51,428 nucleotides of DNA. Origin: Planctomycetota bacterium. Lineage in GTDB: Bacteria > Planctomycetota > Phycisphaerae > Sedimentisphaerales > Anaerobacaceae. Each line of letters opens with the position of its first letter. The stretch's first letter is position 1. Shown one piece after another: positions 15,146 to 40,418 of the stretch. The stretch spans positions 1 to 51,428 of the forward strand of contig JALORE010000006.1 of assembly GCA_025459125.1 (NCBI GenBank). Reading direction: 5' to 3'. Position numbers and translations under genes: made by a program. The notes beneath the pieces were generated by a model. It had not been told where the DNA came from and did not search any database. It saw nothing but the letters and a program-made list of their open reading frames with translations.

Positions 15146-15147
15146 GA

Positions 15148-17499
<2,352 letters not shown>

Positions 17500-17643: not shown

Positions 17644-19029
17644 TCAAGGAATCGCTGGGGCCGGGGTGGATGCGTCCGGGGCGATCGTTAGTCCCAGGCA
17701 GGCAAAGAAACGCGGCCGCAGCAGGGGACGGCGCAGGCCGACCAGGATGAACAGGAGCGAGACCAGGAAGACGCACGCGCCCATGAGCGCGCCACCGGCC
17801 ACGGTGGCTCCGAGCACAAGGGGGATATTCGTGGGCCAGTGGCCGGTCGCAGCGGAACTGAGCAGGAACCACAAAGGCATGCCCAGCGCCGAGAAGGCCA
17901 CGGTCCCTGCTCCCAGCAGGAGGAGGAACTTCACCGGACGGTATACGCCGCGGGACAGATGTACGGCCGGGGCGTACCCGAGAACCATGGTCAGCATCAG
18001 AACGACCAGCAGGGAGGCGAATCCGAGCGTCTGCTCGGTGAAATCCTGCGTCCAGGACGCGCCCACCAGGGCAATACCTAACGCCAGACCCAGAGCCAGG
18101 ACCAGTGCTCGGTCTCGGCCGCGCTGCGCGAGCACGTGGCCGAGGAGCCAGAGTACGGCCGAGCCTACGGCCAGGGACAGTGCCATCGCGCCGAACATCA
18201 CCCGGTCCGAGGTGACGGGTTTGGAGATCCACGCGATGGCCAGCCAGAGCAGGGCCACCAGCAGCACCGGCGCCAGGATCCACACGACTCCCGGGGTGCG
18301 GTTGGCCTTCGGCGCCACCAGGGCGAGCGCGAGCACGACCCATAGGCCCAATCCCGGGACGCTGTAGTACCAGTGCCAATCGTAGGGGACCGGTTCTCCC
18401 GTGCCGGGACCGAGGGCGCCGAGGTCGTAGGAGGGGATGATACGCAAAGGGCCGGAGGTTCCAAAGGGTACTCGCCACGAGTACGAGCCCGTGCTGCTTC
18501 AGCCTGGCTCGAAAACGCCCGCGGCCAGCTCGTTCTCGCCCTGGTAGATGGCAAAGGCCGGCGGTCGTGCGGCTTGGCGCTGGGTGATACTGTACGATTC
18601 GCCGCCGCGTCCGAGTACGTGATAGTTTAGGACCAGCGAGGCGCCCCAGCGTTCGACCCGGATCGTCTGCCGCAGGGGGGCCCCCAGCGTGATGTTCACG
18701 AGCCCGTCCGGCTCGATCTTCACCACCCGCATCGCGGCCTCCTGCCAGGGCCACCGGCCGGAATACTCGCCCTGCAGGATCACTTCCTCCAGGCGATAGG
18801 TGCCCGCGGGCAGGACTAGGTTCGGCTCGCGATAGCAGAAGACAATCCGCCGCCCCGCGCTGTTTTGCAGGACCAGCCGCTCGAGGCCCGCGCCGTCCAG
18901 GCGAAGCGTGCCGACGCGCGGCGTCTGCTCGCCCAGCACGACGGTCGAAAGTACGCAAAGTACGCCCGGCAGAACGGCGCCGTAGCACGCCGCCCGCCCG
19001 GGCCACCGGTGTTTCGCATTTGGTCGCAT
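17644..19029 (-). CDS. Membrane selenoprotein, YGUGG family (divergent copy), in-frame TGA
   Basis: Read with TGA at 18501-18499 as selenocysteine (residue 177), the frame spans 461 residues. It has a signal-like N-terminus (MRPNAKHRWPG then a hydrophobic stretch), an exported beta-rich domain, then AIYQGENELAAGVFEPGU followed by SSTGSYSWRVP, and at least six hydrophobic helices from about residue 215 (LGLWVVLALALVAP onward). The block matches the neighbouring copy at 19316-20530, but the usual Cys of UGGxC is Gly here (USSTG) and YG is PG. GGAGGG lies six bases before the ATG. The hairpin after TGA (18467-18485) is preserved. Without readthrough the N-terminal part ends at FEPG and the helices have only a TTG start, which argues for one protein. 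The role is probably redox (inference). Confidence 0.8.
18467..18485 (-). promoter_or_regulatory. Bacterial SECIS-like hairpin
   Basis: On the minus strand, GTACTCG-TGG-CGAGTAC forms a 7-bp stem with a 3-base loop starting 22 nt after the TGA at 18501-18499. The loop has G at its second position. Confidence 0.75.
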
Positions 19030-19139
19030 GCAAGCCCTCCGAGTTCACTGGCTCACTTCCATGATAGCCTGCCCGGCCGCGGGGTGCCAGCAGGAAACCG
19101 GTGTTGCCCCAGAACGAGCGCAAAGTCGCAGGACGTTCC

Positions 19140-19236
19140 GGGTGGCATCGTCCGGCGGAGCCTGCGGAGCCTGGCGACGGCGAATTGCCTGTGCGATGGA
19201 CCATCGCCGAGGCCTGCGGCCTTGACGATGCCACCC
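19140..19236. repeat. Full copy of the GGGTGGCA...TGCCACCC palindromic repeat
   Basis: A 97-bp element beginning GGGTGGCATCGTCCGGC and ending GCGGCCTTGACGATGCCACCC, with the internal arm GGACCATCGCCGAGGCC. It lies in the 286-bp gap between two selenoprotein genes, which shows nothing else. Confidence 0.8.
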
Positions 19237-19315
19237 GGTGGACGCATTCTCCACCTCCATCTTCAGGGCTTTGCGTTTATCCTGCGATGTTGCCGTCGCG
19301 CGAAAGGGAAACAAT

Positions 19316-20530
19316 CTATCCTGGCTCCGCTATTCCTCGCACCGTGTCGGGCTGTGTTGTCCCGGGTTCCGCGCCGAGCCATGCGCAAAACCGTCGGCGG
19401 AAGAAGGGACTCGTGAACATCAGCAGCAGGTAGGGTAGGTGCACCGCGTACAGGCATATGCCCAGCGCCAGGCCGGGGACGACCACCCGCTGGAACGCCG
19501 ACCGCAGGTCGTCGACAGCCGGGGAACCGGCAACGATCGAGATTCCCGCGGGGACCGCCACGAGGCTCAGGGCGAGCAATACGCTCCAGGCCGCCAGCCA
19601 CAGCGCGAAGCGCAGAGGATCGTAGCGCCGGCGGGCCCGGCGGCGCGCCAGTCCCAGCGAGACCAGCACGACCACGCCGATGAGGATCGTGACGATCAAG
19701 AGCTCTCGGACGCTGCCGGGGAACGTGCGGCTCCAGGCCACGAGGGCCGCCGCATCCGCCAGGAGCACCAATCCCAGACTCGCGGCGCAGCGCACGAGGC
19801 CGCGATACCGGGCGAGCCGGTCGGCGTTGAGCCACAGCAGGCCGGCGCCGACCGCCAGGAACTCGGTCAGAAAACTGAACACGATCTGGTTGGCGGACGT
19901 GATTCCCATCCATCCGGCGACTCGCTGCCAGAGGAAGGCCAGGACCAGCATGGGAATGAAGATCAGCAAGGCCCGAGGATCGCGGTTGGTTCGGGGCAGG
20001 GCGACTCCCAGCGCCAGAAGCAGCCATGGTCCCAGGCCGACCAGATTCCAGGACCAGTGCCAGGGAAACACGGCCGGCGCGCCCTCGAAGGGGCCGGCCC
20101 CGTCGACCCGGGCCGAGGCGACGACGCGCAAGTCACCAAATGTTCGCAACGGTACTCGCCACGAGTACGAGCAGGCGCCGCCTCAGCCATACTCAAATTG
20201 CCCGGAAGCGAGCTGGCGTTGCCCCTGGTAGATGGCGAATCGGGGCGGTTCCTCACGCGGGCCGCCCACGACGGGCAGGCTGTCCCGCCGTGCGGCGGGG
20301 CAGTTCAAGATCAGCCGACGGCCCTGACGCTCGAGCGTGACGGCCGGTCCCGGGGATCCGATCGTCTCGGGGACAGCCACCTCCGGCAGACCCTCGATTT
20401 CCGGACGGACTTGGACCCCAGCCGGGGGTGGCTGGGCGGCGTTCTGGCCCGATGCGCACACGAGGGGCGCGCCTGCCAGCGTCAACCAGACCATCGCTCC
20501 CGACAGGAGCCTTGCGCGTGTGTGTCTCAT
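19316..20530 (-). CDS. Membrane selenoprotein of the YGUGGxC family, in-frame TGA
   Basis: Read through TGA at 20185-20183 (Sec116), the frame gives 404 residues. A signal peptide (about 1-26) is followed by a short exported domain, then AIYQGQRQLASGQFEYGU and GGACSYSWRVP, and then about seven hydrophobic helices (LGPWLLLALGVALP, ALLIFIPMLVLAFLW and others). U116 and C120 form a UxxxC pair that could act as a selenenylsulfide redox centre on the outer face of the membrane (inference). The frame after TGA is open for 277 codons beyond the motif, and its only separate start would be a TTG. The gene begins 21 bases after the stop of the upstream selenoprotein gene and is probably co-transcribed with it. 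I know of no named family. Confidence 0.87.
20151..20169 (-). promoter_or_regulatory. Bacterial SECIS-like hairpin
   Basis: On the minus strand, GTACTCG-TGG-CGAGTAC forms a 7-bp stem whose loop starts 22 nt after the TGA at 20185-20183. The spacing is identical to the sister copies. Confidence 0.8.
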
Positions 20531-20551
20531 GATCCATCATCCTGGCATTGG

Positions 20552-22168
20552 TCACGGCCGGCAGACGGTTACCTCCCGTTTTCCAACCACCGTGCCATAG
20601 AGCTCCCGCGTGTCGTACGTCACTTTGATCGTCAGAGTTTCTTCTGCGCCGTTGATCTCGAAGTCCAATGGTACCCGCCACGAGTACCCGCAGGTGCCGC
20701 CTCAGCCAAACGGCATGATGCCCTGCGCGACGACTTCGCCGTCGGCCCGCGCGATGGTCACCCGGGGAGGGAGCGCGGGGGCCTGCTCGTAGGCCCCTTC
20801 CTTCCCCTCCGGCGTGGTGTAGAGCTTCGTCTCGCGGCGGGTCAGGTCCGCAAGAGCACGCATCACGGTATTGTGCACCGGCTCCACCAGGATGGCTTCG
20901 ATCCGGACCGCGCTTCCCCGGGCGACCGGGTCATTCCCGGCGGGACGGTTGAACATCACGATCGGCCGGTGGGAGAAATCGAGTACGAACGGCTGGTCGG
21001 CGCGGACGGCGATGCCGCGAATCAGGTCTTTGCCGATATGGGTTCGCCCGGATGCATCCGGATAGGGGTTGGTGGAGATGGAGAACCGGACCTGGTCCAT
21101 CTCGACGGTCAGGTAACCCGCGCAGTAGTCGCCGACCGGAATCTCGCAGCGCCGGACACCCTGGAACACGCTCCTCCCATCGAACGGCGCGCCGGTGGTC
21201 ACGATGAAATCCGGCGCACACAGCGCTCCGGCCATCTGGAGCTTCTGCGTGTCCCGTCCGCCGGCGCCGAGCTCGAGGGTGCCCAGCGGGCCATCGTAGG
21301 GGCGGACGATGAGCCGGTCGACCGCCGGCGTGCAGGAGAAGCGGTAATACCTGCCGCCGAGCAGGGTCATGACGTTCAACTGCTCGGCATTCGGAGAACT
21401 GACCCGCCGGCCGTCCTGCGCGACCAGGCACAGCGGCGAAGTCGGATCATGGAGGGGGTCTCGGAGCGTATACCGATAGCCGAGGACCGCGTCGTAGAAA
21501 CTGCCCCCGGCCTCGAACCGGCCGGTATACGCCCGGGCGGGGAGGAAACGGACAAAAATGATCCGGTCCCCATGCTTCCAGATGCAGGGAAGCAGTTCGA
21601 TCGTCCGCCGGCCGGCCTGCGGTGCATCGAGCGTCACGTTCACGGATTCGAACCATGTCCACGTGATCATGGGGTTTTGCGAGGTGGGAAGCCCCGCGGG
21701 TGCCTTCGGCAGAGGTTTACGGGGTGTGTCATTCCTGAGGTCGCCATCGGCGTTCTCGTCGACGTAGAGCAGATCGCCGCCCGAGGGGCCGGCCGACGGG
21801 TCGACCACGCAGGCCAGGCCGCCGGCGCGGGTCCCGGCATTGGCGAGGCGCGTGGCGCTCAGATACGACGAGCGGATCTCTCCATACACGGGTCTACCCG
21901 ACTTGAGAGCGGGATAACGCACGCCCGGGTCCGCCTGCGGACTGACCGCAGAGGGCAGGCCGTCCAGAAAAGAGTCCCGCACGCATTCATGGATCTCCCA
22001 GACCGGGATCTCCCGCAGCGTCACGACCTGCTGGGGCGGGGACGCCGATGCCGCACTCGGACTGGCCTTCTCCCCGGCGGGCAGCCCGAGGGCAGCCGGA
22101 AATAGCAGCAAGCAGGACGACAGGACCCGCGTGCACGTGCGTTTGCGATCGCTTTTCCCGTTCTGCAT
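20552..22168 (-). CDS. Exported selenoprotein of the YGUGGTC family, in-frame TGA
   Basis: Read through TGA at 20704-20702 (Sec489), the product has 538 residues. The ATG at 22168 is chosen for GGAGGGA upstream; the frame stays open to 22213. Residues about 12-32 form a signal peptide. The long exported domain contains LLYVDENADGDLRND and LPARAYTGRFEAGG, suggesting a beta-rich fold with an acidic calcium-type loop. The end reads VVAQGIMPFGU, GGTCGYSWRVP, then about 38 residues of beta-like sequence (EETLTIKVTYDTREL) ending VTVCRP. U489 and C493 form the UxxxC pair. Its overall layout, a large soluble domain, a Sec motif and a short tail, matches the plus-strand copy at 29074-30462. It is first in a run of three minus-strand selenoprotein genes. 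Confidence 0.87.
20670..20688 (-). promoter_or_regulatory. Bacterial SECIS-like hairpin
   Basis: GGTACTCG-TGG-CGGGTACC is an 8-bp stem in which an A-to-G change relative to sister copies keeps pairing as a T-G wobble. The loop begins 22 nt after the TGA at 20704-20702. Confidence 0.82.
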
Positions 22169-22364
22169 GACATTCCCTCCCGCATCTGGCGGCCACCTAT
22201 TGAGTGCCATCATGCTTGGCCCACCTTACCACAACGCGCTTCGAGAAGCAAATGCTGTACCCCCGCCATCCCGGCCGCGCCCGGCTGGGGAACCGAAAGA
22301 CACCGCCGGGGGTGGTTGTGCTACCAGCCCGCAGTACTCCGTCCCTCTGCAGACGGTGAGTTTC

Positions 22365-22449
22365 GGGTGGCAGCGGCCAGCGCAGCTTGCCGATGGCTCG
22401 TCGGGCAGACGCAAACCCCATCGGCAAGCTGCGCTTGCCGCTGCCACCC
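22365..22449. repeat. Full copy of the GGGTGGCA...TGCCACCC palindromic repeat
   Basis: An 85-bp element with arms GGGTGGCAGCGGCCAGCGC and GCGCTTGCCGCTGCCACCC around CTTGCCGATGGCTC. It is followed by CTGTCTCTCATC, the same kind of flank as at 2811. It lies in the divergent gap 22169-22561. Confidence 0.8.
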
Positions 22450-22499
22450 TGTCTCTCATCTTCATAGGAAGGGGTGCGTCGCACGCACCGTCCAACGTA

Positions 22500-22529
22500 T
22501 TGACGCTGTTCCGGGTGGGATGTTACAGT
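22500..22529 (+). promoter_or_regulatory. Candidate sigma70-like promoter for the ThuA-like selenoprotein
   Basis: TTGACG at 22500-22505 and TACAGT at 22524-22529 are separated by 18 bases, 33 bases before the ATG at 22562. Confidence 0.5.
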
Positions 22530-22561
22530 TCACTTGGACAGGTAATTGGGAGGGACTACCG

Positions 22562-23974
22562 ATGTGGGCCGTACAACGTGCAGATCTCCGCGGATGGGCG
22601 GCAGGGGTGGCCGGCCTGATGCTACTCGCGGGGGCCGAACAGGGCAGCGCCCGCGAGCCGGCGCCGGTGAATCGCAGCCTGAAGATTCTCTATGCCGGGC
22701 GCCCCGGCTCCGACCGCGAAGCGGACTTCGTCGCCTTTCTCCAGCAGCAATTCGACGTAGTCCGGACGGGCAACCTGGAAACGCTCCGGGAGGCGGACCT
22801 GCAGGGCTTCGACGTGACGCTGCTCGATTGGGACGGCAATGTCTTCGCGGGGCCTTGCCCGCAGTTTTCCGAGAGCTTCTCCCGGCCGGTCATCACCCTG
22901 GGCGTGCACGGCAGCATGATCTGTTCCCGCCTGCAGCTTAAGATGGCGCCCTGGTGAAGCTGCCTGGAAGAGGCGGCTCATGCTGAGCTGCTCGACCACG
23001 AGGTGTACCACACGCCGCTGGCGGTGGCGCCCGAGTTCGAATTTCGCGCCACGCCGGAGAACTATCGTGAGACCTATCCGGGTCCGGGCCAACTGCCCGA
23101 CCGAATCAAGGTCTGGCGGGTACAGACTTCGCCCAGAGGCAGCGTGGTCGCCTGTTCCTACGGCTTCCAGGACTCGCCCGACGCCGAGATCATCGCGGTT
23201 GGTTTCAACCGGGCCAAGGGTTACGGCGCGATCGGCATCGGCCGGCACGCCAATTTCCTGCAATGGGGCTACGGCGACCCGCCTTCCCGGATGACCGAGG
23301 CGGGCCGGCGGCTCTTCATCAATTGCATTCACTACCTCCACCGGTTCGACGGCCGGACCCCGCTGGTCCGCCGCCGTGCCGGCAGCCGGGTCGAAGCCGT
23401 CGCCGTGGCCTCGGCCCTGGCGCGAGTCGGTCGGTTTGCGGCCGGGCGAGTGATCTACCTCGGCCCTTCTCCGGAACCCAAGGAAACCGCGGGGTGGCCG
23501 AAGGAATCGGCCTTTCGCGCCTGGCTGCACCCGGGTCGGGAGCTGCCCCTCGAGAGCACGCGCCAGACCACCCAGCCCGCGGGCGATATCGTAGCGCCCG
23601 CCATGGACCTGCAGAAGCAGTTCTTCCTCGACAAGTTCGGGCCGGATCTTTGGGACAAGTACCACGCGGACCCGAATGGTCTGGTCGCCTACTACCAAGT
23701 CAACCTGGAGTTGGTCTACCATGATGAAGTCTACCGCGTCGACGAGGACCTCCGGTCGCTTGGCCTTACCTCCAATCGCACGTTCGAAACGCTGGAGCGT
23801 CTGTACGAGTTGTGGCAGGACCCGACTCGTCGCGAGCTCGCACAACGGCTCCTGGATCGCTACACGGACGGTCGGACGACGTTCGATTTCAAGACGGGCC
23901 GGGGCCGCATCTACTTCAGCGACGTGGGCGGGTACAAGTTCTTCGTGATTCCGGAAGGCTATCTGGACCGGTGA
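22562..23974 (+). CDS. Exported ThuA-like selenoprotein with APWUSC motif, in-frame TGA
   Basis: Read with TGA at 22955-22957 as Sec132, the frame is continuous for 470 residues. A signal peptide (about residues 8-28, LRGWAAGVAGLMLLAGAEQG) is followed by a Rossmann-like ThuA/glutamine amidotransferase-like domain: ILYAGRPGSDREADFVAF, FDVTLLDWDG, PVITLGVHGSMICS, then KMAPWUSCLEEAAH, and GIGRHANFLQWGYGDPPSRM. U132 and C134 form a UxC pair in the place where this fold has a nucleophile-like loop. The C-terminal 150 residues form a separate helical region ending FFVIPEGYLDR. GGAGGG precedes the ATG. The frame after TGA has no suitable start before domain-essential sequence, so two separate genes are unlikely. 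The substrate is unknown. Confidence 0.85.
22973..22991 (+). promoter_or_regulatory. Bacterial SECIS-like hairpin
   Basis: GCGGCTCA-TGC-TGAGCTGC is an 8-bp stem with one G-T wobble. The 3-base loop begins 24 nt after the TGA at 22955-22957, and the loop has G in the second position. Confidence 0.72.
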
Positions 23975-24089
23975 CCGGCTCATGGGACCGGGTAGCAGGC
24001 GTGCCTCAGGTGTGGCTGGGCCCATGAGTCCCATAAGTCGTATCAGTCCTGTCGGGTTGATTGGACTGATCCGACCGACAGGTCCAATG

Positions 24090-24207
24090 GCGATCCTGCA
24101 AGGATCGCGGGGCATCAGGCCGCTCACCCCGGCTGCAGCTACGCCAGCCGCAGGATCATCGCGACACTCGCACCCAGCAGAAGGTACTCGATCCTGTCGT
24201 ACCGCAT
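24090..24207 (-). pseudogene. Decayed paralogue of the small membrane selenoprotein
   Basis: An ATG at 24207 with GAGGGG upstream opens MRYDRIEYLLLGASVAMILRLA and then hits TAG at 24141-24139. Four codons later the sequence reads LQPG-TGA, followed by an 8-bp hairpin with a TGC loop (24090-24108), as in the neighbour at 24298-24549 (MQYGRI...LRPG-TGA). The likeness suggests a duplicated gene now cut by a nonsense codon. Alternatively the shared part is a mobile repeat. The rest of 23975-24297 shows no gene. Confidence 0.45.
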
Positions 24208-24297
24208 CGGCATTCCCCTCGAAGAACCCGGCGCTGGAAGGACTGGCCTTACTCTACGGTGGCGGCGGCTCCGTTGCAGATGGGCTTCTTCCCATTG

Positions 24298-24549
24298 TCA
24301 GTGCAGCAAAAGGAGGAAGGCAATGATCAGGGCTCCCGAGCCCAGCAGGGCCACGATGGCGTACTCCCGGCGGTCGTCCCGGGTCGCACCGAGGATGCTG
24401 AACACCAGGGCCAGCGGCGGGCATAACAGCAGCACAGGTCCTGCAAGGACCCGCAGGGGGCTGCTTCACCCCGGCCGCAGGACGATCAGCAGCGCCAGGG
24501 TCACGGCGAAGACAGCGAGGATCTTCAACGCAATTCTGCCGTACTGCAT
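24298..24549 (-). CDS. Small membrane selenoprotein candidate, in-frame TGA
   Basis: From the ATG at 24549 (GGGAGG upstream) the frame reads MQYGRIALKILAVFAVTLAL, LLIVLRPG, then TGA (24468-24466, residue 28), then SSPLRVLAGPVLLLCPPLAL, VFSILGATRDDRREY and a final helix GALIIAFLLLLH. With readthrough this is an 83-residue protein with three hydrophobic helices and a compact RDDRRE loop. The hydrophobic pattern after the TGA supports real coding. A SECIS-like hairpin lies at the same distance as in the other selenoprotein genes. However, the TGA region resembles sequence 340 bp away, so an inserted repeat that broke the gene is a fair alternative. It lies downstream of selB on the same strand. 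Confidence 0.6.
24435..24453 (-). promoter_or_regulatory. Bacterial SECIS-like hairpin
   Basis: CGGGTCCT-TGC-AGGACCTG is an 8-bp stem with one wobble. Its loop begins 21 nt after the TGA at 24468-24466. Confidence 0.6.
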
Positions 24550-24782
24550 GGACAAGCCTCCCGGGAAGTCCACCCATTCACCCACGGTTCTTATCGTACT
24601 TTCAGGCTTCCTTCTGCAAACATTCCGGCAGTATCTCCGGGCTCCTGAGATCGCATGTGCGTCAGTCGTTTGCTGCGGCTTGCCTGTAGCGACGCTGCCA
24701 GAGGTGATCCCGCAGGCTCTTACGCTCGCTGGTCAGGGCGAGGCATGCCTCGCACCTACAGCCCGCGCACCCGCGGTGTTCG

Positions 24783-26765
24783 TCATTTCAGGTGGCGGGT
24801 GTACCCGACCCGGCGAGTGACGCCGATCTTGTCGAAGTAGTCCAGCAGGGGGATGGCGTACTTGCGGCTGGTGTCGAGGAGGTACTTGAATTTGACGCTC
24901 TCCAGGCCGCCGTTTTCCCGGATATAGGAGACCAGGCGCTCCTGCGCGGTAGCCACGGCTTCGGCATGGAAGAACAGGTCCTGGTCCACGCGCACGAGCC
25001 GTTGCTGTTCTCCGAGAATGCGCAGGACTCTCTGCACCTGCGGTGGTGCGACGCGCATCTGCACGGCGATCTCCGACGGGGCCGGCGGATCGAAAGGATG
25101 GCTCTGGAACAGCGCCTCGACGTTCTGCAGCAGTTGCTGCTCGGCATCCTTGAACTGCTCGCGATGCTCCGGCACGGCCAGGAAGCCTTTGCGGTCGGCG
25201 AGCTGGCCGTCTGCCCGCAGTCGCTCCACCACCGCCTCGAAGACGTCCTTTCGTAGGATGGGCTTTAGCCCATGCTGTTGTGGTCCGGCCATGCCAGTGC
25301 CGTCCGCATGGGCTGAAGCCCATCCTACACGGGCGGACTCGGACAGGAGCTGCTCGCGGCCGATACCGGGACTCTCCGGCCGTTGGCGGTGAAACGCGCG
25401 GACGAGGTCGAGCACCTGCTGTTGGACACGCTGGGCGGTGTCCACGTGCAGATACGCCTTGCCGCTGATGGCCAGGATGCGTCCCTCGTTCACCAGCTCC
25501 GCCAGGAGGCCGGCCAGCTCTTTGGGCGGGATCTTGCTCCGCAGTGAGATCTGCCTTTCATCCGCCGCGAACGCCTCGGCGTTCTTCACGCAGTACTCGA
25601 CGAAGTCCTTCGGTCGTGCGACCGCCTTGGCTCGTTCGGTGATGTCCTGCAGAACGTCCGGATGGGTCCGTTTGAGACGCTTTTCGAGCGCTTCGACGAT
25701 GATCCCGCCGCCGAGCGTGTGCGTGGGTGAGAGCGAGCGGATGATGAAGTGGTCGCGCGGCCCGGCGATGACGGGATGGTCCAGAAAGACCTGGATCAGG
25801 CATGGCCGGCCCGGCTTGAGACGGCCTTCCTGGAAGAGGTACACGCTGGCCGGCGACTCCGAGGTGCCGGTGTGGAACTTGACCTGGGCGGCATTCTTGA
25901 GGTCGCCTTTTTCCTGATCTAGCAGCTTCAGCGCGCACAAGTACCACTGGTGCGGTGCGAAGTAATCGCTGACGGTGATCACATTGCCCCGTTCGACGGT
26001 CTTGGGGTCCCACTGGGGGATGTTCAGGGCGGCACACTGGCCCGCCAGCGCCCGCGTGCTGTCGCGGCCGTAGACCTGCACGGACCGCAGCCGTCCCTTC
26101 GTCCCCTGGGGCAGCAGCACGAGCTCGTCGCCGACGTCCACGGCCCCGCACGCGGGAATCCCGGCCACGATCGTTCCGTAGCCTTTGGCGGAGAACGCCC
26201 GCTCCACCGGCACGCGGAAGACGCCGCCGGTGGTCTTGGGGGTGATGGACGCGACCAACGCCTTGAGGGCCTCGTAGAACTCCTCGAAGCCCTGGCCGGT
26301 GATGTTGGAGATCGGCAGGATCGGGGCCTCCTGCAGGAAGGTGCCGGTCAGGAAACGGCGGATCTCCTGGGTCGCGGTCTGCACCCGCTCGGCATTCACC
26401 ACATCCACCTTGGTCAGCGCCACGATCCCGTGCTCGACGCCCAGCAGGGTGAGGATGTCCATGTGCTCGCGGGTCTGCGGCATCACGCCGTCGTCGGCCG
26501 CGACCACGAGGATGCAGCCGTCGATCCCGCTGGCGCCGGCCACCATCGTCTTGATAAAGCCCTCGTGGCCGGGGACATCGACGATGCCCACCTCGATATC
26601 GGAGATGATACACGGCGCGAAGCCCAGCTCGATCGACATGCCGCGTTCCTTCTCGATCTTGAGCCGGTCCGTGTCGCAGCCGGTCAGGAGCTTGACCAAC
26701 GCGGTCTTGCCGTGGTCGATATGCCCGGCGGTGCCGAGTGTGACGTTCTGCTGTTGTACGGTCAT
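24783..26765 (-). CDS. selB: Selenocysteine-specific elongation factor SelB
   Basis: A 660-residue translation GTPase that binds Sec-tRNA and the SECIS hairpin and delivers selenocysteine at UGA. The GTPase domain shows P-loop GHIDHGKT (residues 13-20), DVPGHE and TKVD. EF-Tu-like domains follow, with AFSAKGYGTIVAG. The C-terminal winged-helix repeats that read SECIS end with GVTRRVGYTRHLK. The ATG at 26765 fits the conserved start VTLGTAGHIDHG, although the ribosome site is weak. Within the winged-helix region, about 25 residues (RVGWASAHADG...HGLKPIL) are encoded by a palindromic repeat inserted in frame (25253-25328), between LLSES and KDVFEAVVERL. It follows selA on the same strand after 148 bp that contain a second copy of that repeat. 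Confidence 0.97.
   Translation of the reverse strand: MTVQQQNVTLGTAGHIDHGKTALVKLLTGCDTDRLKIEKERGMSIELGFAPCIISDIEVGIVDVPGHEGFIKTMVAGASGIDGCILVVAADDGVMPQTREHMDILTLLGVEHGIVALTKVDVVNAERVQTATQEIRRFLTGTFLQEAPILPISNITGQGFEEFYEALKALVASITPKTTGGVFRVPVERAFSAKGYGTIVAGIPACGAVDVGDELVLLPQGTKGRLRSVQVYGRDSTRALAGQCAALNIPQWDPKTVERGNVITVSDYFAPHQWYLCALKLLDQEKGDLKNAAQVKFHTGTSESPASVYLFQEGRLKPGRPCLIQVFLDHPVIAGPRDHFIIRSLSPTHTLGGGIIVEALEKRLKRTHPDVLQDITERAKAVARPKDFVEYCVKNAEAFAADERQISLRSKIPPKELAGLLAELVNEGRILAISGKAYLHVDTAQRVQQQVLDLVRAFHRQRPESPGIGREQLLSESARVGWASAHADGTGMAGPQQHGLKPILRKDVFEAVVERLRADGQLADRKGFLAVPEHREQFKDAEQQLLQNVEALFQSHPFDPPAPSEIAVQMRVAPPQVQRVLRILGEQQRLVRVDQDLFFHAEAVATAQERLVSYIRENGGLESVKFKYLLDTSRKYAIPLLDYFDKIGVTRRVGYTRHLK
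25253..25328. repeat. Palindromic repeat inserted in frame within selB
   Basis: A 76-bp element with arms GTAGGATGGGCTTTAGCCCA and GCATGGGCTGAAGCCCATCC around a 30-bp centre. It is nearly identical in its arms to the intergenic copy at 26841-26910, but here it encodes part of SelB. Confidence 0.88.
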
Positions 26766-26840
26766 GAGTTTCGTCCGTCCTGTTGGTTCTGTGGACGCCC
26801 TGGACGCGGTGGACTCATGGACTCCCATTTCGTAGTCTTC

Positions 26841-26910
26841 GTAGGATGGGCTTCAGCCCATGCGGAGAATTCGCCAGGACAGAAGCAGCATGGGCGGAAG
26901 CCCATCCTAC
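26841..26910. repeat. Palindromic repeat between selA and selB
   Basis: A 70-bp element beginning GTAGGATGGGCTTCAGCCCA and ending GCGGAAGCCCATCCTAC. It is the intergenic sister of the copy within selB. Confidence 0.85.
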
Positions 26911-26913
26911 ATG

Positions 26914-28344
26914 CTATTCGGTTGCGGCCAGCGCGGCGGCCACCGCCCGGATCACGATCTCGTCATCGCCGACCCGCAGCGTGCGGGGATCCAGCAGGAC
27001 TTGGTCGTTCTGAATTCGGGCAAAGACCGGGGGTTCGTGGAGCCGCAGCCGCTGCGCCAGCTCATCGACACCGATCCTCTGCGGCGTGACCGCCACCAGG
27101 GTCGTCGCCAGGTTCTGCGCCGGCAGCGAGCCGCTGCCCATCTCCGAGAAACCGCTCGCCGTATCCACCGTCGCGGCGACATTTCTCGCGCGGATCTCGG
27201 AAACCAGACGCTCCGCGTGTTCCCGGATCTCCTCGACACCGCGCCGGAGCATCCGTAGTGTGGGCACTTCGCGCAGCGCGATGCTCTCGTCCAGGAATAG
27301 CTTCAGCGTCGCTTCCAGCACGGCCAGGGTGAGCTTGCCCACCCGGACGATCCGGGCGAACTGGTTCTTCCGCACCGCGTCGATCAGAGTCTTCTTGCCC
27401 AGGATCAGGCCGCCCTGCGCGGCGCCGATCAGCTTGTCGGCACTGCACGTGACGATGTCCGCCCCCAGGCGGATCGAACCCGCCAGCATCGGCTCGGGCT
27501 CGAACCCGAACTGCGCAAAGTCGATCAGGGCGCCGGCGCCCACGTCGTCGATCATCACCAGGTTGTGCTTATGGGCGATCTGCACCATCTCTGCGAGCGG
27601 GACTTCCGCAGAGAACCCCTGGATCTTGTAGTTGCTCGGATGCACGCGGAGCAGCGCGGCGGTGTTCTCGGTGATCGCGTTTTCATAGTCGCGCGGATGG
27701 GTTTTATTGGTCGTGCCGACCTCGACCAGCTTGGCCCCGCTGAAAGCCATCACCTCGGGCAGGCGGAACGAGCCGCCGATCTCGACGAGCTGGCCGCGCG
27801 AGACGATGACCTCTTTATCCCGGGCCACCGTGTTGAGCACGATCGCGGTCGCGGCGGCGTTGTTGTTGACGACCGTGGCCGACTCGGCACCGGTCAGCCG
27901 CCGGAGCAGCGACTCGATTCGCTCATCACGCCGGGACCGCTTGCCCGTTGCCCGGTCCACCTGGAGCAGCGAGTAGCTCTGCAGCGTTTCCTGAATCTGC
28001 GCGAGGGCCCTGGCAGGCAGAACCGCCCGGCCCAGGCCGGTGTGCAGGATGATCCCGGTGGCATTGACCGCCCGGCGATAGAACGGTCGCGCCAGGCCCT
28101 GCAATTGTTCCGTGGCGGCGGCCAGAATACGGCTGCGGACCGCTGCCTCGCTTGTTTCCGAGGCGGACCCGGCCAGGAACTGCCGGCGCATTTCCTCCAC
28201 TGCCGCGCGGACCGCATCCGCCACCGGCTCTCGTCCGCAGTCGGCCACCCAGGCCGCCAACGCCGGCTCGCTCAGGAGCGAATCGACGGAGGGGACCTTC
28301 CGCAATAGTGCCTGGATCTGTGCATCCATCGTGCCTGTTCCCAT
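26914..28344 (-). CDS. selA: L-seryl-tRNA(Sec) selenium transferase SelA
   Basis: A 476-residue PLP enzyme that converts seryl-tRNA(Sec) to selenocysteyl-tRNA(Sec) using selenophosphate. Visible signatures are NATGIILHTGLGRAVL, the VVNNNAAA loop, SRGQLVEIGGSFRLPEVM and the PLP lysine in CSADKLIGAAQGG, all typical of bacterial SelA and of normal length. The ATG at 28344 is given; an in-frame ATG at 28329 (MDAQIQALL) would also fit the family start. It is divergent from the selenoprotein gene at 28489 across a 144-bp gap and is the first gene of the selA-selB pair. Confidence 0.97.
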   Translation of the reverse strand: MGTGTMDAQIQALLRKVPSVDSLLSEPALAAWVADCGREPVADAVRAAVEEMRRQFLAGSASETSEAAVRSRILAAATEQLQGLARPFYRRAVNATGIILHTGLGRAVLPARALAQIQETLQSYSLLQVDRATGKRSRRDERIESLLRRLTGAESATVVNNNAAATAIVLNTVARDKEVIVSRGQLVEIGGSFRLPEVMAFSGAKLVEVGTTNKTHPRDYENAITENTAALLRVHPSNYKIQGFSAEVPLAEMVQIAHKHNLVMIDDVGAGALIDFAQFGFEPEPMLAGSIRLGADIVTCSADKLIGAAQGGLILGKKTLIDAVRKNQFARIVRVGKLTLAVLEATLKLFLDESIALREVPTLRMLRRGVEEIREHAERLVSEIRARNVAATVDTASGFSEMGSGSLPAQNLATTLVAVTPQRIGVDELAQRLRLHEPPVFARIQNDQVLLDPRTLRVGDDEIVIRAVAAALAATE

Positions 28345-28433
28345 CAGCTCGCCTGCAGCGCCTTGTGCAGGCCACCGGCGTTCATTCTACCGGCCGCCGG
28401 CGACCCGACAAGCCGATTTTGTCCATTTGCGTG

Positions 28434-28462
28434 TTGACAGGCGGTCGCCGCCACGATACAAG
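28434..28462 (+). promoter_or_regulatory. Strong sigma70-like promoter for the plus-strand selenoprotein operon
   Basis: TTGACA at 28434-28439 and TACAAG at 28457-28462 are separated by exactly 17 bases, 26 bases before the ATG at 28489. A second AT-rich box, TATATT, lies at 28468. Confidence 0.65.
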
Positions 28463-28488
28463 AAGAGTATATTGCGAGGGATCAAGCT

Positions 28489-29040
28489 ATGAAGAATACT
28501 GATCAACTCCGCCTGGCCGGCATCGTGGTGCTGGTGCTGCTCGTCGCTGTCCTGTTCTTCGTGAGGTCACCTTCCGGATCCGGACCGGTCTCGGTCTCGA
28601 TTCCCGCCGGCGGGGCCTCGACATCCGTGAGCCGGACCGCGGCGGATGGGAGCACTTGGACCCTGGACCAGGCCGGGGGCGGGTTGCTCGTCTCGACCGA
28701 TCCCAACGGTCCCAAAGCAGGGCCGCCGATCCTGGTCAAGACGGATGTCATCCGAGCGGGCCCGGAATACGCCATCGGACTGATTCTGGAAGGCCAGGCC
28801 GGCGAGCACTACCGGCCGGTGGTCAAGAAGGACGGCAGTCCGGTGTCCGCTCCGACGTTACGGATCGTCAATGAAGCGGGCCAGGTGATAACCCAGGGCG
28901 ATTTCCAATATGGCTGAGGTGGCACCTGCCGGTACTCGTGGCGAGTACCAAACGATTTCGCCGGAAAGTTCCAGGTCCAGGTGGGCATCGACCTCGGTCC
29001 GATCGAGGTCAAGCACGACCAACCCTGGCACAGCCTGTAG
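28489..29040 (+). CDS. Anchored selenoprotein of the YGUGGTC family, in-frame TGA
   Basis: Read through TGA at 28915-28917 (Sec143), the product has 183 residues. One hydrophobic helix (about residues 8-27) anchors a small exported domain. A conserved block follows: GEHYRPVVKKDG, TLRIVNEAGQVITQG, then DFQYGU, GGTCRYSWRVP, NDFAGKFQVQV, DLGPIEVKH and WHSL. The next gene has the same tail (SDFQGKFQVQI, DLGPFEVRH, WHSI), so the sequence after TGA is under protein-level conservation. U143 and C147 form a UxxxC pair. GAGGGA lies before the start. It is the first gene of a two-gene operon ending at the terminator at 30488. This is the minimal member of the family and nearly a free-standing Sec domain. 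Confidence 0.92.
28931..28949 (+). promoter_or_regulatory. Bacterial SECIS-like hairpin
   Basis: GGTACTCG-TGG-CGAGTACC is a perfect 8-bp stem with a 3-base loop that begins 22 nt after the TGA at 28915-28917. The same bases encode YSWRVP. Confidence 0.85.
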
Positions 29041-29073
29041 CGGTCTATCCGGCCCTGGCGGAGGGGCCTGGCG

Positions 29074-30462
29074 ATGAGGCTCAAGGCGCACGGGATCATC
29101 CTGTTGATGGTCATCGCCGTCGGTGGCGGGATGCTCTGGTTGCTCCTGGGACGCGCGTCCATCCAGGAGGGTGGATGCCGGCTGGCGCGCCAGAAGGTTG
29201 ATCCGTCCGGTCAATTGGTGACACTCGCGGTTCAGATGCTCCAACCTCAAACGGCCCCGCCGGCGCGGGTGCGCGATCTTCCGGCCGGTTTTGACCGGCC
29301 CTGCTATTATGAGATCAAGAGCGCCGGCCGGCGCATCCCCGTGGTCGTGAATCTGTCCGAAAGACCCCGCCTGTGTGTGGATACCGGTGCCGATGGCGTT
29401 CTCGCGCAGGAACGGTGCTTCACGGCAACGTCGATCCGCGCCACCGAGGTCAACAGCGGTTCGTGGCGGTTCGGGCCGATTTCGCTGACGCCCCGGGACG
29501 GCTCCCGTGCCGCTGAGGGCCAGTTCTACGTGGATTGCTATCGGCTGGAGAAGCCGGAGGCCGTGACCACCCGCCCTGCGTTCTTCCGGACCGGCAGGCT
29601 CACCTTGGACGGCCGGACCTATCGCGTGGCGGTGGTCGATGGCGATTGTGACGGCCGGTTCCATTCGCTCCTGTCGCTGCCTCTCGATCATGCGTGGCGC
29701 ATCCCGGAATCCGACGTGTTCGCCATCGATCTGGATGGCGACGGCAAGTTCGCGATTTCGCTGAACGGACAGTCGGAAATCATGCCGCTGGGACGCCTGG
29801 TGCAGGTGGCAGACACGTATTACGCTCTCGAGATTGCTTCCGATGGGACGAGCCTGGCCCTTTCCCGAACCGAGCCCCGGTTCGGGACGCTTGCGGTCGA
29901 GCCCAACGATGCGATCATGGAAGTGAGACTGTGGTCCGACGCCGCCGATCAGTACCTGCGCGGTCGCCAGTGGCGGTTGCCCGTGGGCCGGTACCAGGGG
30001 ATTTACGCTGCTCTCGAGAAGAAGGACGCGGCGGGGGACGTATGGTCGTTTGCCTCCGACCTCAGTTCTGCCGTCGGTCGCCTCGGACCGCTCGATTTCT
30101 TCACCATTGAGCCGGGGCGGCCGACGCGGATTCGGGTCGGCCCGCCCTTTGTCGTGACGGCGGACGTGCATCAAGCCGGTGGGCAGGTTTCGATCAGCCC
30201 GGTCCTCATCGGTGTCGCGGGCGAGCACTACCAGCCGAACTTCCAACGGAACTACCGGCGTGCGCCGGACCGTACGTTCCGGATCGTGGATGAGAAGGGG
30301 ACCGTGCTCGTGGCGGACAAGTTCCAGTATGGCTGAGGTGGCACCTGCCGGTACTCGTGGCGAGTGCCATCGGACTTCCAGGGCAAGTTCCAGGTGCAGA
30401 TCGAGATGGACTTGGGCCCCTTCGAGGTCAGGCACGAAAGGACGTGGCACTCCATCGAGTAG
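29074..30462 (+). CDS. Large anchored selenoprotein of the YGUGGTC family, in-frame TGA
   Basis: Read through TGA at 30334-30336 (Sec421), the product has 462 residues. It starts with a membrane anchor (residues about 8-26, IILLMVIAVGGGMLWLLLG). A long exported domain contains acidic loops resembling calcium sites (VVDGDCDGRFHS and FAIDLDGDGKFAIS). The C-terminal Sec domain reads GEHYQPNFQRNYRR, TFRIVDEKGTVLVADKFQYGU, GGTCRYSWRVP, SDFQGKFQVQI, DLGPFEVRH and WHSIE. U421 and C425 make the UxxxC pair. GGAGGGG lies seven bases before the ATG, 34 bases after the preceding selenoprotein's stop. The layout parallels the minus-strand copy at 20552-22168. Confidence 0.92.
30350..30368 (+). promoter_or_regulatory. 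Bacterial SECIS-like hairpin
   Basis: GGTACTCG-TGG-CGAGTGCC keeps all 8 pairs through a T-G wobble. Its loop begins 22 nt after the TGA at 30334-30336. Confidence 0.85.
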
Positions 30463-32364: not shown

Positions 32365-32365
32365 T

Positions 32366-33700: not shown

Positions 33701-33752
33701 AAGGATCGCCCCACGTGTTGGTTGGATGCCGAGTAGTCGGCTGCACTGCGGT

Positions 33753-33841
33753 GGGTGGCATCGTCAAACGCGGCTTGGCGATGGTCTGCCGTGCATGCGC
33801 CAGAGCCATCGCCAAGGCCTTCAGCCTTGACGCTGCCACCC
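33753..33841. repeat. Full copy of the GGGTGGCA...TGCCACCC palindromic repeat
   Basis: An 89-bp element starting GGGTGGCATCGTCAAACGC and ending CAGCCTTGACGCTGCCACCC, with inner arms TTGGCGATGGTCTG and CAGAGCCATCGCCAA. It separates the first and second HgdB-like genes. Confidence 0.8.
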
Positions 33842-33887
33842 GATCCGAGAGGACATTGTTCCATCCATGACAGAGTCAGGAACCATC

Positions 33888-36942: not shown

Positions 36943-37203
36943 TGGAATACTGGAGTACTGGAATGATGGAATGTTGGGTGGAAGAATCCAGCCCTGTAAA
37001 GGTGAGAGACAGGGTGGCAGCGGCAAGCGGAGTCTTCGGAGCTTGCCGCTGGCGTTTGCGGCTGTCCCACGAGCCATCGGCAAGCGGCGCTTGCCGCTGC
37101 CACCCATCATGGGCCTCGCATGCAAAGAAATCTACACACCACCTTTACAGGGTTGGGTGGAAGAACCGGACTCCCCGACATTCCAGTATTCTATCATTCC
37201 ATC
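36943..37203. repeat. Compound nested inverted-repeat element before selD
   Basis: The gap between activase and selD is built of nested arms. Outer text is TGGAATACTGGAGTACTGG (left) and CATTCCAGTATTCTATC (right). Inside these lie CCCTGTAAAGGTG and CACCTTTACAGGG. At the core is a full GGGTGGCA...TGCCACCC copy (37012-37105). It looks like repeats inserted into one another. Confidence 0.75.
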
Positions 37204-37218
37204 GTCCTTGAGGATTCG

Positions 37219-38853
37219 ATGATGATCAATACCGAACGACGCAAGCGCGTGATGCAACGATCCATCCGGCTGGGACACTGCATCTGCGATCCGAAGCAGC
37301 CGTGCCCATGTCCCTTGTTCCAGGAGAGGAACGTCTGCACCTGTGCCGGCGAGCGGCGGGAGAGTCCGACCGGCAGCGTGCGGCTGACGAAGCTCGTGGA
37401 GAAGGCGGGCTGTGCCTCGAAGATCGATCAGGCTTTTCTCAAGAAGGTGCTGGCGGGCCTGCCGGCGATCGACGATCCCCGCGTCCTGGTGGGCGTCCCG
37501 GCCGGGGACGACGCCGGCATCTACGACCTGGGCAACGGCCAGGCCCTGGTGCAGACGGTAGACGTGTTCACGCCGTCCGTGGACGATCCGTACACGTTCG
37601 GCCAGGTCGCCGCGGCCAACTCGGTCAGCGACGTCTACGCCATGGGCGGCACGCCGCTGACGGCCCTTTCCATTGTGGGTTTTCCCGCGCGGATGATCCC
37701 CGATGATGCCCTGTTCCAGATCCTCGCCGGCGGGATCGACAAGATGAAGGAGGCCGGCTGCGCCATCATCGGCGGCCACAGCATCAACGACGCCGAGATC
37801 AAGGCGGGCTTCGCCGTCACCGGAATGATCGACAAGAATCGCGTGGTCGTCAACGCCGGCGCTCGGCCGGGGGATGTGCTGATCCTCACCAAGCCGCTGG
37901 GCACCGGCATCGTGGCCTTTGCCGCCCAGATCGACCGGGCCCGGCCGGACAGTGTCCAGGCCGCCGCCGCCTCGATGGCCTCCCTGAACAAGACCGCCTC
38001 CGAGCTGATGGTTCAGTTCGGTGCGCACGCCTGCACCGACGTCACCGGCTTTAGTCTCATGGGCCACCTGGCCGAGATGGCCCGGTCCAGCGGTGTGGAT
38101 GTCCGCATTATCTGGGACGACTTGCCGCTTTTCGAAGGAGTGCTGGAGTGCGCCGCGGCCGGCATCCTGCCCGGGGCCGTCGAACGAAACAAGGAATCGT
38201 GCAGCGACCGCGTCGTGGCCCCGGGGCCGCTTCCCCAGGAGATGATCGACATCTGTTATGACGCCCAGACCTCCGGCGGCCTGCTGATCGCCATCGAGTC
38301 GGGCAAGGCGACCGACCTGGTCCAGGCTCTGCACGACCGTGGCGTCCCGGCGGCGACCATCGTCGGCCAAGTCACCGGCCCGGGCTCCGGCCTGATCCAT
38401 CTCGAAACGACCGGTCAACGGAAGATCCCCGCCCCCGCTCCGGTCGAAGCGGCCAAGCCGCCCCAAGTATCAATTATCAATCATCCATCATCAATCGAAG
38501 AGGTTCCCTGCTGCGCTGATGCCCTTGGCGCTACGGCGTCCGCGCCCTCGGGGAGGGTCTCTCCCCAGCGGGGGGCAACTGGGACACAGGACCAAGACCC
38601 GGTCAAGGCTGCTTTCAAGCAGTTCCTCGGTGCAGCCAGCACTCCCCGCGCGCTGGACGCTTACACGAAGCAGGCGATGGCAATTGCCTTGTCGGTCGCT
38701 CTACGTTGCGAGCCTTGTCTGAAGATGCACCTGAAGAACGCTCGGAGCAAGGGATTCACCCAAGAGGAAATCGATGAGGCGGCCTGGATGGGCATCAGCT
38801 TCGCCGGCTCCCCGGCCATGGTCTTTTACGAACAGGCGAAGAGCCAACCGTAA
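37219..38853 (+). CDS. selD: Selenophosphate synthetase SelD with Cys-rich N-terminus and AhpD-like C-terminus
   Basis: A 544-residue fusion; the ATG at 37219 has GAGG five bases upstream. Residues 14-46 carry three CxC motifs (C21/C23, C29/C31, C40/C42), a possible metal or selenium site. Residues 54-400 are SelD, which makes selenophosphate from selenide and ATP: GCASKI holds catalytic C65 and K68 (equivalent to E. coli C17 and K20), followed by GVPAGDDAGIYDL, NSVSDVYAMGG, GGHSIND and DVTGFSLMGHL. The active residue here is Cys, not Sec. After a low-complexity linker (about 415-465), residues 465-544 form a carboxymuconolactone decarboxylase/AhpD-like domain with ALRCEPCLKMHLKNA, a CxxC thiol site. 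The fusion suggests thiol-linked handling of selenium before selenophosphate formation (inference). Confidence 0.95.
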   Translation: MMINTERRKRVMQRSIRLGHCICDPKQPCPCPLFQERNVCTCAGERRESPTGSVRLTKLVEKAGCASKIDQAFLKKVLAGLPAIDDPRVLVGVPAGDDAGIYDLGNGQALVQTVDVFTPSVDDPYTFGQVAAANSVSDVYAMGGTPLTALSIVGFPARMIPDDALFQILAGGIDKMKEAGCAIIGGHSINDAEIKAGFAVTGMIDKNRVVVNAGARPGDVLILTKPLGTGIVAFAAQIDRARPDSVQAAAASMASLNKTASELMVQFGAHACTDVTGFSLMGHLAEMARSSGVDVRIIWDDLPLFEGVLECAAAGILPGAVERNKESCSDRVVAPGPLPQEMIDICYDAQTSGGLLIAIESGKATDLVQALHDRGVPAATIVGQVTGPGSGLIHLETTGQRKIPAPAPVEAAKPPQVSIINHPSSIEEVPCCADALGATASAPSGRVSPQRGATGTQDQDPVKAAFKQFLGAASTPRALDAYTKQAMAIALSVALRCEPCLKMHLKNARSKGFTQEEIDEAAWMGISFAGSPAMVFYEQAKSQP

Positions 38854-38958: not shown

Positions 38959-39053
38959 GGAGGTGACTGGTGCCTGGTGGTGCCCCTGGTCTTCAAAACC
39001 AGTGTAGGGCCGAGAAGGTCCTGGGTGGGTTCGATTCCCATTCGCCTCCGCCA
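38959..39053 (+). tRNA. selC: tRNA-Sec (anticodon TCA)
   Basis: A 95-nt tRNA including an encoded CCA. The acceptor stem has 8 bp (GGAGGTGA with TTCGCCTCC). The D stem is the long 6-bp type (GGTGCC, loop TGGT, GGTGCC). The anticodon loop CTTCAAA carries TCA, which reads UGA. A long variable arm (AGGGCC, GAGA-type loop, GGTCCT) and a T arm with TTCGATT follow, and the discriminator is G. These are the hallmarks of bacterial selenocysteine tRNA. It lies between selD and a candidate selenoprotein gene and proves that UGA can be decoded as Sec here. Confidence 0.97.
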
Positions 39054-39563: not shown

Positions 39564-40418
39564 GTGAACATGGGCAACCGAACCAAGTTGGCAGGCGTCT
39601 TCGCGAAGCTTCAGCCGCACCGTTTGTGGGTCCAGTCCGCGTTTCTGCTCGTCTGGCTGGACGTGTTTGGCCTTCGCTATCACGGCGTCTGTGCCCCGGT
39701 CTTTCACTGCTATGCCTGCCCGCTGGCGACCTTCGCCTGTCCCATTGGCGTCCTGGCCAACTTCAGTGCCCTGCACGTGATTCCCTTCATGACGATCGGC
39801 CTGCTCGTTCTCGTGGGGGCCTTCGTGGGCAGCCTGTTCTGTGGCTGGGCCTGTCCCTTCGGCTGGCTGCAGGACCTCGCCGCGAAGATCCCGACTCCCA
39901 GGTTCGAGCTGCCCCGCTGGATGGGGCATTTCCGCTTCGTCGTGCTGGGTGGCGCGGTCCTGGCGATTCCGTTCCTCTTTGGCGAGCCCCATCCGCTGTT
40001 CATCTGCCGGATCTGTCCCGCCGGCGGCCTCGAAGCGGCGCTGCCGGGCATCGTCCAGCAGGCCTGGACCGGCCAGCCGATCGCCTGGCCCAGCGCGATC
40101 AAGCTCGGCATCATTGTCGCTTTCGTGGGGGCCATCCTGTTCTTCAAGCGGCCCTGGTGCCGGGTCCTGTGCCCGCTCGGCGTGATCTTCTCCTCGTTCA
40201 ATCGTATCTCCGGCTTCTTCCTGCGCGTGGATCGCACTAGCTGCACCGACTGTAAACGCTGCCACAAGCTCTGCCAGTACAACATTGAGCCCGAGAAGAG
40301 CCCGAACGACCTCCGCTGCATCCGCTGCCTCGAATGCACCCGCTGTCCCTTCGGCGCCCTCGCCCCCCACACAGTCCTCCACGGACGACAGAGCGTGCCC
40401 AGCGAGTCTGCGGATTGA
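39564..40418 (+). CDS. NapH/YccM-like membrane Fe-S electron-transfer protein
   Basis: A protein of about 284 residues with four or so membrane helices and many cysteines: HCYACPLATFACPIG, CGWACPFG, ICRICPAGG, CRVLCPLG, then a ferredoxin-like pair CTDCKRCHKLCQYNI and CIRCLECTRCPFGAL, which should bind two [4Fe-4S] clusters. The family passes electrons from quinols across the membrane to periplasmic reductases. The start may be GTG 39564 or ATG 39570; no strong ribosome site is seen. It lies 145 bp after the CPTU gene, and that gap contains a GAAATCCGAAATCC repeat. It could supply electrons to the Sec proteins (inference). Confidence 0.88.
   Translation: MNMGNRTKLAGVFAKLQPHRLWVQSAFLLVWLDVFGLRYHGVCAPVFHCYACPLATFACPIGVLANFSALHVIPFMTIGLLVLVGAFVGSLFCGWACPFGWLQDLAAKIPTPRFELPRWMGHFRFVVLGGAVLAIPFLFGEPHPLFICRICPAGGLEAALPGIVQQAWTGQPIAWPSAIKLGIIVAFVGAILFFKRPWCRVLCPLGVIFSSFNRISGFFLRVDRTSCTDCKRCHKLCQYNIEPEKSPNDLRCIRCLECTRCPFGALAPHTVLHGRQSVPSESAD

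Follow-up and report, generated by a model that had tools for sequence, protein, structure and literature searches.

A predicted family of selenocysteine-containing macroglobulin/Ig-like proteins encoded among the sel genes of a planctomycete

The window analyzed here is the whole 51,428-nt stretch of contig JALORE010000006.1 (assembly GCA_025459125.1, positions 1 to 51,428 of the forward strand) from a Planctomycetota bacterium of the Anaerobacaceae, and it carries five members (A to E) of a protein family in whose genes a TGA codon lies in frame. When the window was translated with TGA written as U, for the predicted selenocysteine (Sec), all five members read as full genes. Members A (17644..19029, minus strand, 461 aa, TGA at 18501-18499) and B (19316..20530, minus strand, 404 aa, TGA at 20185-20183) share one architecture, a hydrophobic N-terminus and an MG2-like domain followed by a membrane part; 284 residues in A and 288 in B come after U, and most of them form predicted membrane helices. 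Member C (20552..22213, minus strand, 553 aa, TGA at 20704-20702) is long, with an N-terminal hydrophobic segment and the U-bearing domain (hereafter the Sec domain) at its end, where the site reads MPFGUGGTCGYSWRVP. Member D (28489..29040, plus strand, 183 aa, TGA at 28915-28917) is short and consists of an N-terminal hydrophobic anchor and the Sec domain, and member E (29074..30462, plus strand, 462 aa, TGA at 30334-30336) has an N-terminal helix, a beta-rich region, and a C-terminal Sec domain. A first-pass annotation, made from the letters of the window without database searches, had described these five frames as a selenoprotein family hidden behind in-frame TGA codons; its coordinates, strands, and quoted peptides were all reproduced, as was the run of two minus-strand copies into membrane helices. 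Five is the correct count for the window but not for the genome, in which three further members on contigs C164, C429, and C95 bring the number found to eight.

Past each TGA lies a hairpin resembling a Sec insertion sequence (SECIS), at 18467..18485 in A, 20151..20169 in B, and 20670..20688 in C (all on the minus strand) and at 28931..28949 in D and 30350..30368 in E (both on the plus strand). With UGA counted as columns 1-3, its 8-bp stem pairs columns 17-24 with columns 28-35 around a UGG loop and begins 13 nt past the UGA. We examined pairing in 74 UGA windows (73 distinct) out of 88 rows collected in the genome searches described below; Trp at U+8 was required, and the other 14 rows did not have it there or were cut short. 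A mean of 7.18 of the 8 stem pairs was formed, against 4.86 (standard deviation 0.15) under synonymous codon shuffling. In the 73-row alignment, 89.7% of cells were paired vs. 79.7% after shuffling, and cells in which both sides had changed numbered 45 vs. 9.6; none of 500 shuffles reached either observed value, and sliding the stem out of register dropped pairing to 25-55%. Seven or eight pairs persisted across the peptide variants YSWRVP, LSWREP, FSWREP, HLWQMP, LRWPEP, and QCVWNAL, the first two of which are written by the stems UACUCG-UGG-CGAGUACC and CUCUCG-UGG-CGAGAGCC, respectively. Since the hairpin covaries and fits the SECIS model, the conserved peptide past U is largely the translated SECIS stem, and YSWRVP is constrained at the RNA and the protein level alike. 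The observation in the first-pass annotation that the downstream peptides stay conserved holds for the family, but much of that conservation is dictated by the stem.

The layout is that of E. coli formate dehydrogenase, in which a hairpin directly downstream of an in-frame UGA is read by SelB; the protein is unrelated, and in the present family a UGG loop tops a stem coding for YSWRVP or its variants. The bacterial SECIS model specifies a loop of 3-9 nt with G in the first two positions, a stem of 4-16 bp, a spacing of 16-37 nt, and a minimum free energy of at most -7.5 (PMC13188914). The UGG loop (G second), the 8-bp stem, and the 21-nt spacing from UGA to loop satisfy those constraints as given there. 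The energy limit is reached by 87 of 87 windows and is a weak criterion, as other windows of the same genes, used as controls, average -12.0 kcal/mol vs. -15.9 kcal/mol for the UGA windows. A covariance model of the UGA and hairpin, built partly from the five window members and run with filters off, scored those members at 49.8-67.9 bits, compared to 10.4 for the next-best match in the window, and recovered all eight members from the whole genome. Two further genome matches, on C161 (26 bits) and C76 (19.5 bits), fell in short, seemingly non-coding frames and were rejected. Rfam, searched at gathering scores, had no entry at the hairpin sites.

Selection on the protein sequence continues beyond the TGA. 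Among 27 short-tail members (164 pairs sharing 60% identity or more), the ratio of nonsynonymous to synonymous divergence was 0.216 over the 20 codons before the TGA and 0.215 over the 29 codons after the hairpin, with synonymous divergence of 0.655 before, 0.580 after, and 0.218 within the 11 hairpin codons. As a control, four ordinary neighboring genes that end in TGA (encoding a methyltransferase, a double-cubane-cluster protein, a NapH-like protein, and SelB) were aligned to their relatives in 17 alignments. Five of these had a stop at the projected place, with 0-3 of 40 residues common beyond it, and the other 12 were off register, with 0-12 of 40 residues common. The U genes mostly had 12-38 of 40 residues in common past the TGA, apart from four weak alignments with 4-6. 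The first-pass annotation had said that homologues lacking similarity downstream would count against it; compared with the control, coding conservation instead runs on past the TGA.

We searched 61 relatives using E as the query and 392 genomes across the phylum using a 26-row domain profile; 12 candidates for the domain and 10 for tRNA-Sec were scored per genome in the large searches, making absences soft. E had matches in 24 of the 61 relatives. Matches to the domain profile were present in 27 of the 392 phylum genomes, with the TGA absent from the match in G439, G236, and G393. A profile search of the fetched loci yielded 87 distinct domains with U (88 rows, in which B was counted twice) and three without; U occupies the same alignment column in all 87, which come from 46 genomes, and further U-bearing genomes outside those 46 came from a later search of the order. 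Of the three domains without U, one is a paralogue in G110, where a U copy exists too, and the other two are MG2 domains from proteins resembling macroglobulins. Partner domains vary: ankyrin repeats come after the Sec domain in G338 (L047:274-2280), and lectin-like domains do so in G058 (L083:7392-10250). A protein database held 157 relatives of E, and 117 of the 120 listed end at the residues preceding the TGA, so annotation has probably cut these proteins at the UGA. The named database matches are from Sedimentisphaerales, Phycisphaerae, or Phycisphaerales, plus two from Solirubrobacterales that may be misbinned.

The first-pass annotation had proposed looking in planctomycete genomes for Sec or Cys at the TGA position, and alongside the 87 U domains we found a Cys form in G439, a 585-aa protein built like A and B with CC at the Sec site. 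This protein fell below the profile threshold and is not among the three non-U domains. G439 has no clear tRNA-Sec and no clear SelA. The CC is invariant in the database relatives of the Cys form that were aligned (23 of 30). In 16 of 16 U frames covering the site, including one from G501, a genome of the same genus as G439, U lines up with the leading Cys of the CC, and the U of A and of B also falls on that Cys in a multiple alignment. Among the genomes searched, Cys at the site occurs only in genus g48 (G439, G498, G500, and G503). As judged from these alignments, the U form and the Cys form are a classical Sec/Cys pair. The membrane part of the Cys form is also encoded as a separate protein, with no Sec-domain match, in the genome studied here (L113, G000:C9:18040-18738), and this stand-alone form is present in other genomes too.

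The window encodes the machinery for Sec decoding, and all four components listed in the first-pass annotation were found: selB (24783..26828) and selA (26914..28344) on the minus strand, and selD (37120..38853), whose product is a fusion ending in an AhpD/CMD domain that bears a CEPC motif, and tRNA-Sec (38959..39053) on the plus strand. Presence of the family tracks this machinery among the relatives. A tRNA-Sec of at least 68 bits was found in 17 of the 61, all 17 of them family-positive (Fisher p 6e-10); a match of 48.2 bits in the family-negative G017, just over the cut-off, was treated as not real. A SelB score over the cut-off was obtained in 19 of the 24 relatives that have the family vs. 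0 of the 37 that lack it (Fisher p 1e-11). In the phylum set, tRNA-Sec was present in 20 of 24 U-bearing genomes vs. 211 of 368 others (p 0.017), the latter figure implying that many Sec-decoding planctomycetes have no member findable by this search. Nine of the 11 family-bearing genomes without a clear tRNA-Sec have SelA or SelB, and at least one of tRNA-Sec, SelA, and SelB is present in 44 of the 46.

The in-frame UGA is thus very likely decoded as Sec, as predicted from sequence comparison. The features by which bacterial selenoproteins are recognized occur together: a UGA flanked on either side by homologous coding sequence, a bacterial SECIS stem-loop, the sel machinery, and an aligned Cys homologue. 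The first-pass annotation had called Sec decoding the simplest reading, and it is strengthened by the covariation of the hairpin, the co-occurrence of the machinery, coding conservation measured against a control, and the Cys homologue at the U position. The UGA would be read as Sec under the direction of the covarying hairpin, with its UGG loop 21 nt past the codon, using the SelA, SelB, SelD, and tRNA-Sec encoded among the family genes. Such decoding would place selenium on eight likely envelope proteins of one organism.

In structure models (mean pLDDT, the predicted local distance difference test score, of 91.5 for E, and 82.6), the Sec domain resembled immunoglobulin (Ig) and macroglobulin domains, and that of E was modeled as all-beta with no helix. 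The Sec domain is modeled as a macroglobulin/Ig-like domain and not as a thioredoxin. Sec would sit in a turn between strands of an exported domain of this type, anchored in several architectures by an N-terminal helix or a following membrane domain, and YSWRVP would be largely a SECIS-stem translation laid over a domain strand. The N-terminal hydrophobic segments or membrane helices visible in the sequences make an extracytoplasmic location likely. A sequence search against solved structures returned one weak adhesin match (6fwv, E 0.0034) and otherwise chance matches, and whole-model Foldseek matches, with query-normalized TM-scores of at most 0.18, were not used.

The first-pass annotation did not recognize the family, and indeed none of the five window proteins has a Pfam or NCBIfam match over the cut-off; the only NCBIfam match listed for them, to exosortase (E 0.71), is spurious. 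The MG2 domain of alpha-2-macroglobulins (PF01835) matches none of the five full proteins. Compared with 26 members it gave a best E of 0.0086 and E <= 0.1 for four of the 26; true MG2 domains reach 58.6 and 80.2 bits, whereas the family stays below the gathering cut-off of 32.8 bits and has a single Sec. The DUF1573 selenoprotein has an Ig-like fold. Its family (PF07610), with motif UGC, stands in Table 1 of PMC13188914; Sec lies near Gly and Cys in both families, but the motif is UGC there and UGGxC here. No signal of kinship between the two emerged: the hhalign probability was 0.6% (from a small mixed set of four rows), and PF07610 came up neither in the Pfam search with the five proteins nor among the matches listed for domain alignment A1. 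The thioredoxin fold accounts for the majority of characterized selenoproteins according to the same source (PMC13188914). Thioredoxin-fold selenoproteins often have Sec near a Cys, as here, but with UxxC in place of UxxxC, and Pfam gave no thioredoxin match in the five proteins.

DsbD joins an Ig-like redox domain to a membrane domain, and A and B are similar in that an Ig-like domain with a chalcogen site is joined to membrane helices. We rejected a DsbD-like conduit through these helices because the membrane part has no invariant or nearly invariant Cys among 10 Sec forms; in the Cys-form group, 21 of 22 have a CC in the membrane part. A fusion of the N-terminal region of the C164 member to a redoxin was likewise discarded, there being none at E <= 0.001 among 7997 candidates scored.

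As to function, the first-pass annotation had taken a UxxxC site to suggest envelope redox chemistry. The motif is present in four of the five window members (UGGAC in B, for example; A has USSTG), but family-wide Cys at U+4 occurs in 73 of 87 distinct domains and is absent in 14, so that it is neither universal nor essential and the mechanism must involve more than a Sec-Cys pair. Cys at this position in most domains and the CC of the Cys form nevertheless suggest redox chemistry. Sec may act as a redox-active selenol on the outer side of the cytoplasmic membrane, often paired with Cys at +4 (UGGxC), and electrons could possibly be supplied by the NapH/MauN-like membrane ferredoxin encoded next to tRNA-Sec (39564..40418, plus strand). 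We propose this donor because a NapH-like gene lies near family members in six of seven relative contigs (G005, G037, G058, G008, G031, and G025); the examined stretch of the seventh, G035, has none. Taken as a whole, a Sec-decoded family with an extracytoplasmic redox selenol and a possible NapH-like donor is our best explanation, to which we give a probability of roughly 60%.

Between the selenoprotein genes and selD, from 31558 to 36163, lie genes for a methyltransferase, for a double-cubane-cluster reductase (NF040772, 404.7 bits), and for two further HGD-D proteins; these accompany the selenoprotein genes and selD in G005, G008, and G037 as well. G005 and G008 largely preserve the resulting order, SelB-SelA / D-E-methyltransferase-double-cubane protein-two HGD-D-SelD-(tRNA-Sec)-NapH-like, and G037 has it in rearranged form. 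Among the relative contigs examined, only G005 had DUF3034. A sulfatase gene (13715-16165) lies near the family cluster, and sulfatases adjoin the cluster in G005 and G058 as well. Farther along, at 44368-47154, a GH57 domain is fused with a glycogen-synthase-like glycosyltransferase.

Several observations weigh against the explanation that we favor. Single-sequence folds of the hairpin are unexceptional (z -0.08 to -2.43), and the case for it rests on covariation; the distant windows L058 and L062 form 0 and 2 of the 8 pairs, and few pairs also form in the distant members L063 (3), L075 (3), and L057 (4). Similarity past the TGA is also seen in two neighbors, HGD2 (10, 18, and 20 of 40 residues) and HGD3 (1, 9, and 23). 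HGD2 overlaps HGD3 in another frame, and we assume that the similarity beyond HGD3 is due to frame overlap as well. Two family-positive genomes, G019 and G110, have no clear Sec machinery (SelB was not searched in G110). G019 (L036, L076) is a single-contig genome with a U-bearing member and without a clear tRNA-Sec, SelA, or SelB, for which either the machinery was lost or the assembly is incomplete. By eye, Gly takes the place of U in the database relatives P0076 and P0088, one of them keeping Cys at +4. For the redox role, 10 of the 87 domains (one of them truncated) lack Cys anywhere from -6 to +12 relative to U, which means that a local Sec-Cys pair does not hold throughout the family, and the Sec-form membrane part has no conserved Cys, as noted above. 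It is from chemistry and neighborhood alone that we infer the redox role and the link to NapH.

The strongest competing view, though an improbable one, accepts Sec but without redox turnover: the selenolate would bind a metal, trap electrophiles at the surface, or form an Se-S bond to a partner. Sec is retained in those 10 domains where the second Cys has been lost, paralogues carry varied partner domains, including ankyrin and lectin-like domains, and the fold is common in binding domains and is not an oxidoreductase fold. The frequency of Cys at U+4 and the CC of the Cys form speak for redox chemistry instead, and a metal site is further disfavored by domain alignment A1, in which the columns that never vary hold G, U, Y, W, R, V, and P but no His, Asp, or Glu. 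Quite unlikely is a selenium-dependent switch, in which a truncated and probably unfolded product would be made without selenium and the full protein, membrane-anchored in A and B, with it. The UGA of A and B does precede the entire membrane domain, but in 51 of the 88 rows at most 45 codons run from the UGA onward, and the model of E places the UGA inside the domain, where it looks like an active residue. We consider it very improbable that the UGA specifies a different amino acid or is passed by non-specific readthrough: Gly at the position in two database relatives would fit, but the hairpin fits the SECIS model, tRNA-Sec co-occurs, Cys stands at the homologous position, and TGA truly terminates neighbors such as SelB and the methyltransferase, beyond whose stops the in-register alignments share 0-3 of 40 residues. 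That the TGAs are real stops in decayed genes, with the downstream similarity a leftover, agrees with the ends of most database proteins but can be practically dismissed, given equal purifying selection before and after the TGA in 27 members and a frame open past it in 46 genomes.

No entry in the available part of a 2026 inventory of 119 selenoprotein families and subfamilies fits the present family by motif and name (PMC13188914). Prior work on planctomycete selenoproteins exists (PMC4807772), and we recognized no description of the family in the literature searched, although one may stand in preprints, subscription papers, or a supplement. A broader interpretation than the Sec-decoded redox family, and one that we hold to be somewhat better than an even bet, is that these proteins carry a selenium domain that is mobile: a macroglobulin/Ig-like module with Sec, fused to membrane, ankyrin, and lectin-like domains or to lone anchors and seldom seen in a Cys form. 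This module would be the main Sec client in these Planctomycetota, its gene copies would surround the sel genes, and its motif would be written by the hairpin. If true, it would constitute a large selenoprotein superfamily on a fold atypical for selenoproteins.

Many selenoprotein finders depend on Cys homologues, and the authors of deep-Sep state that their method may miss selenoproteins without them (PMC12013277). The family illustrates what escapes: eight genes in one genome, relatives of E that mostly end at the UGA, and a domain that mostly has Sec. It also offers a protein motif largely dictated by an RNA element, in which amino-acid covariation tracks base pairing. With it, a likely extracytoplasmic selenium site on an Ig-like domain, beyond the usual thioredoxin fold, is now open to testing.

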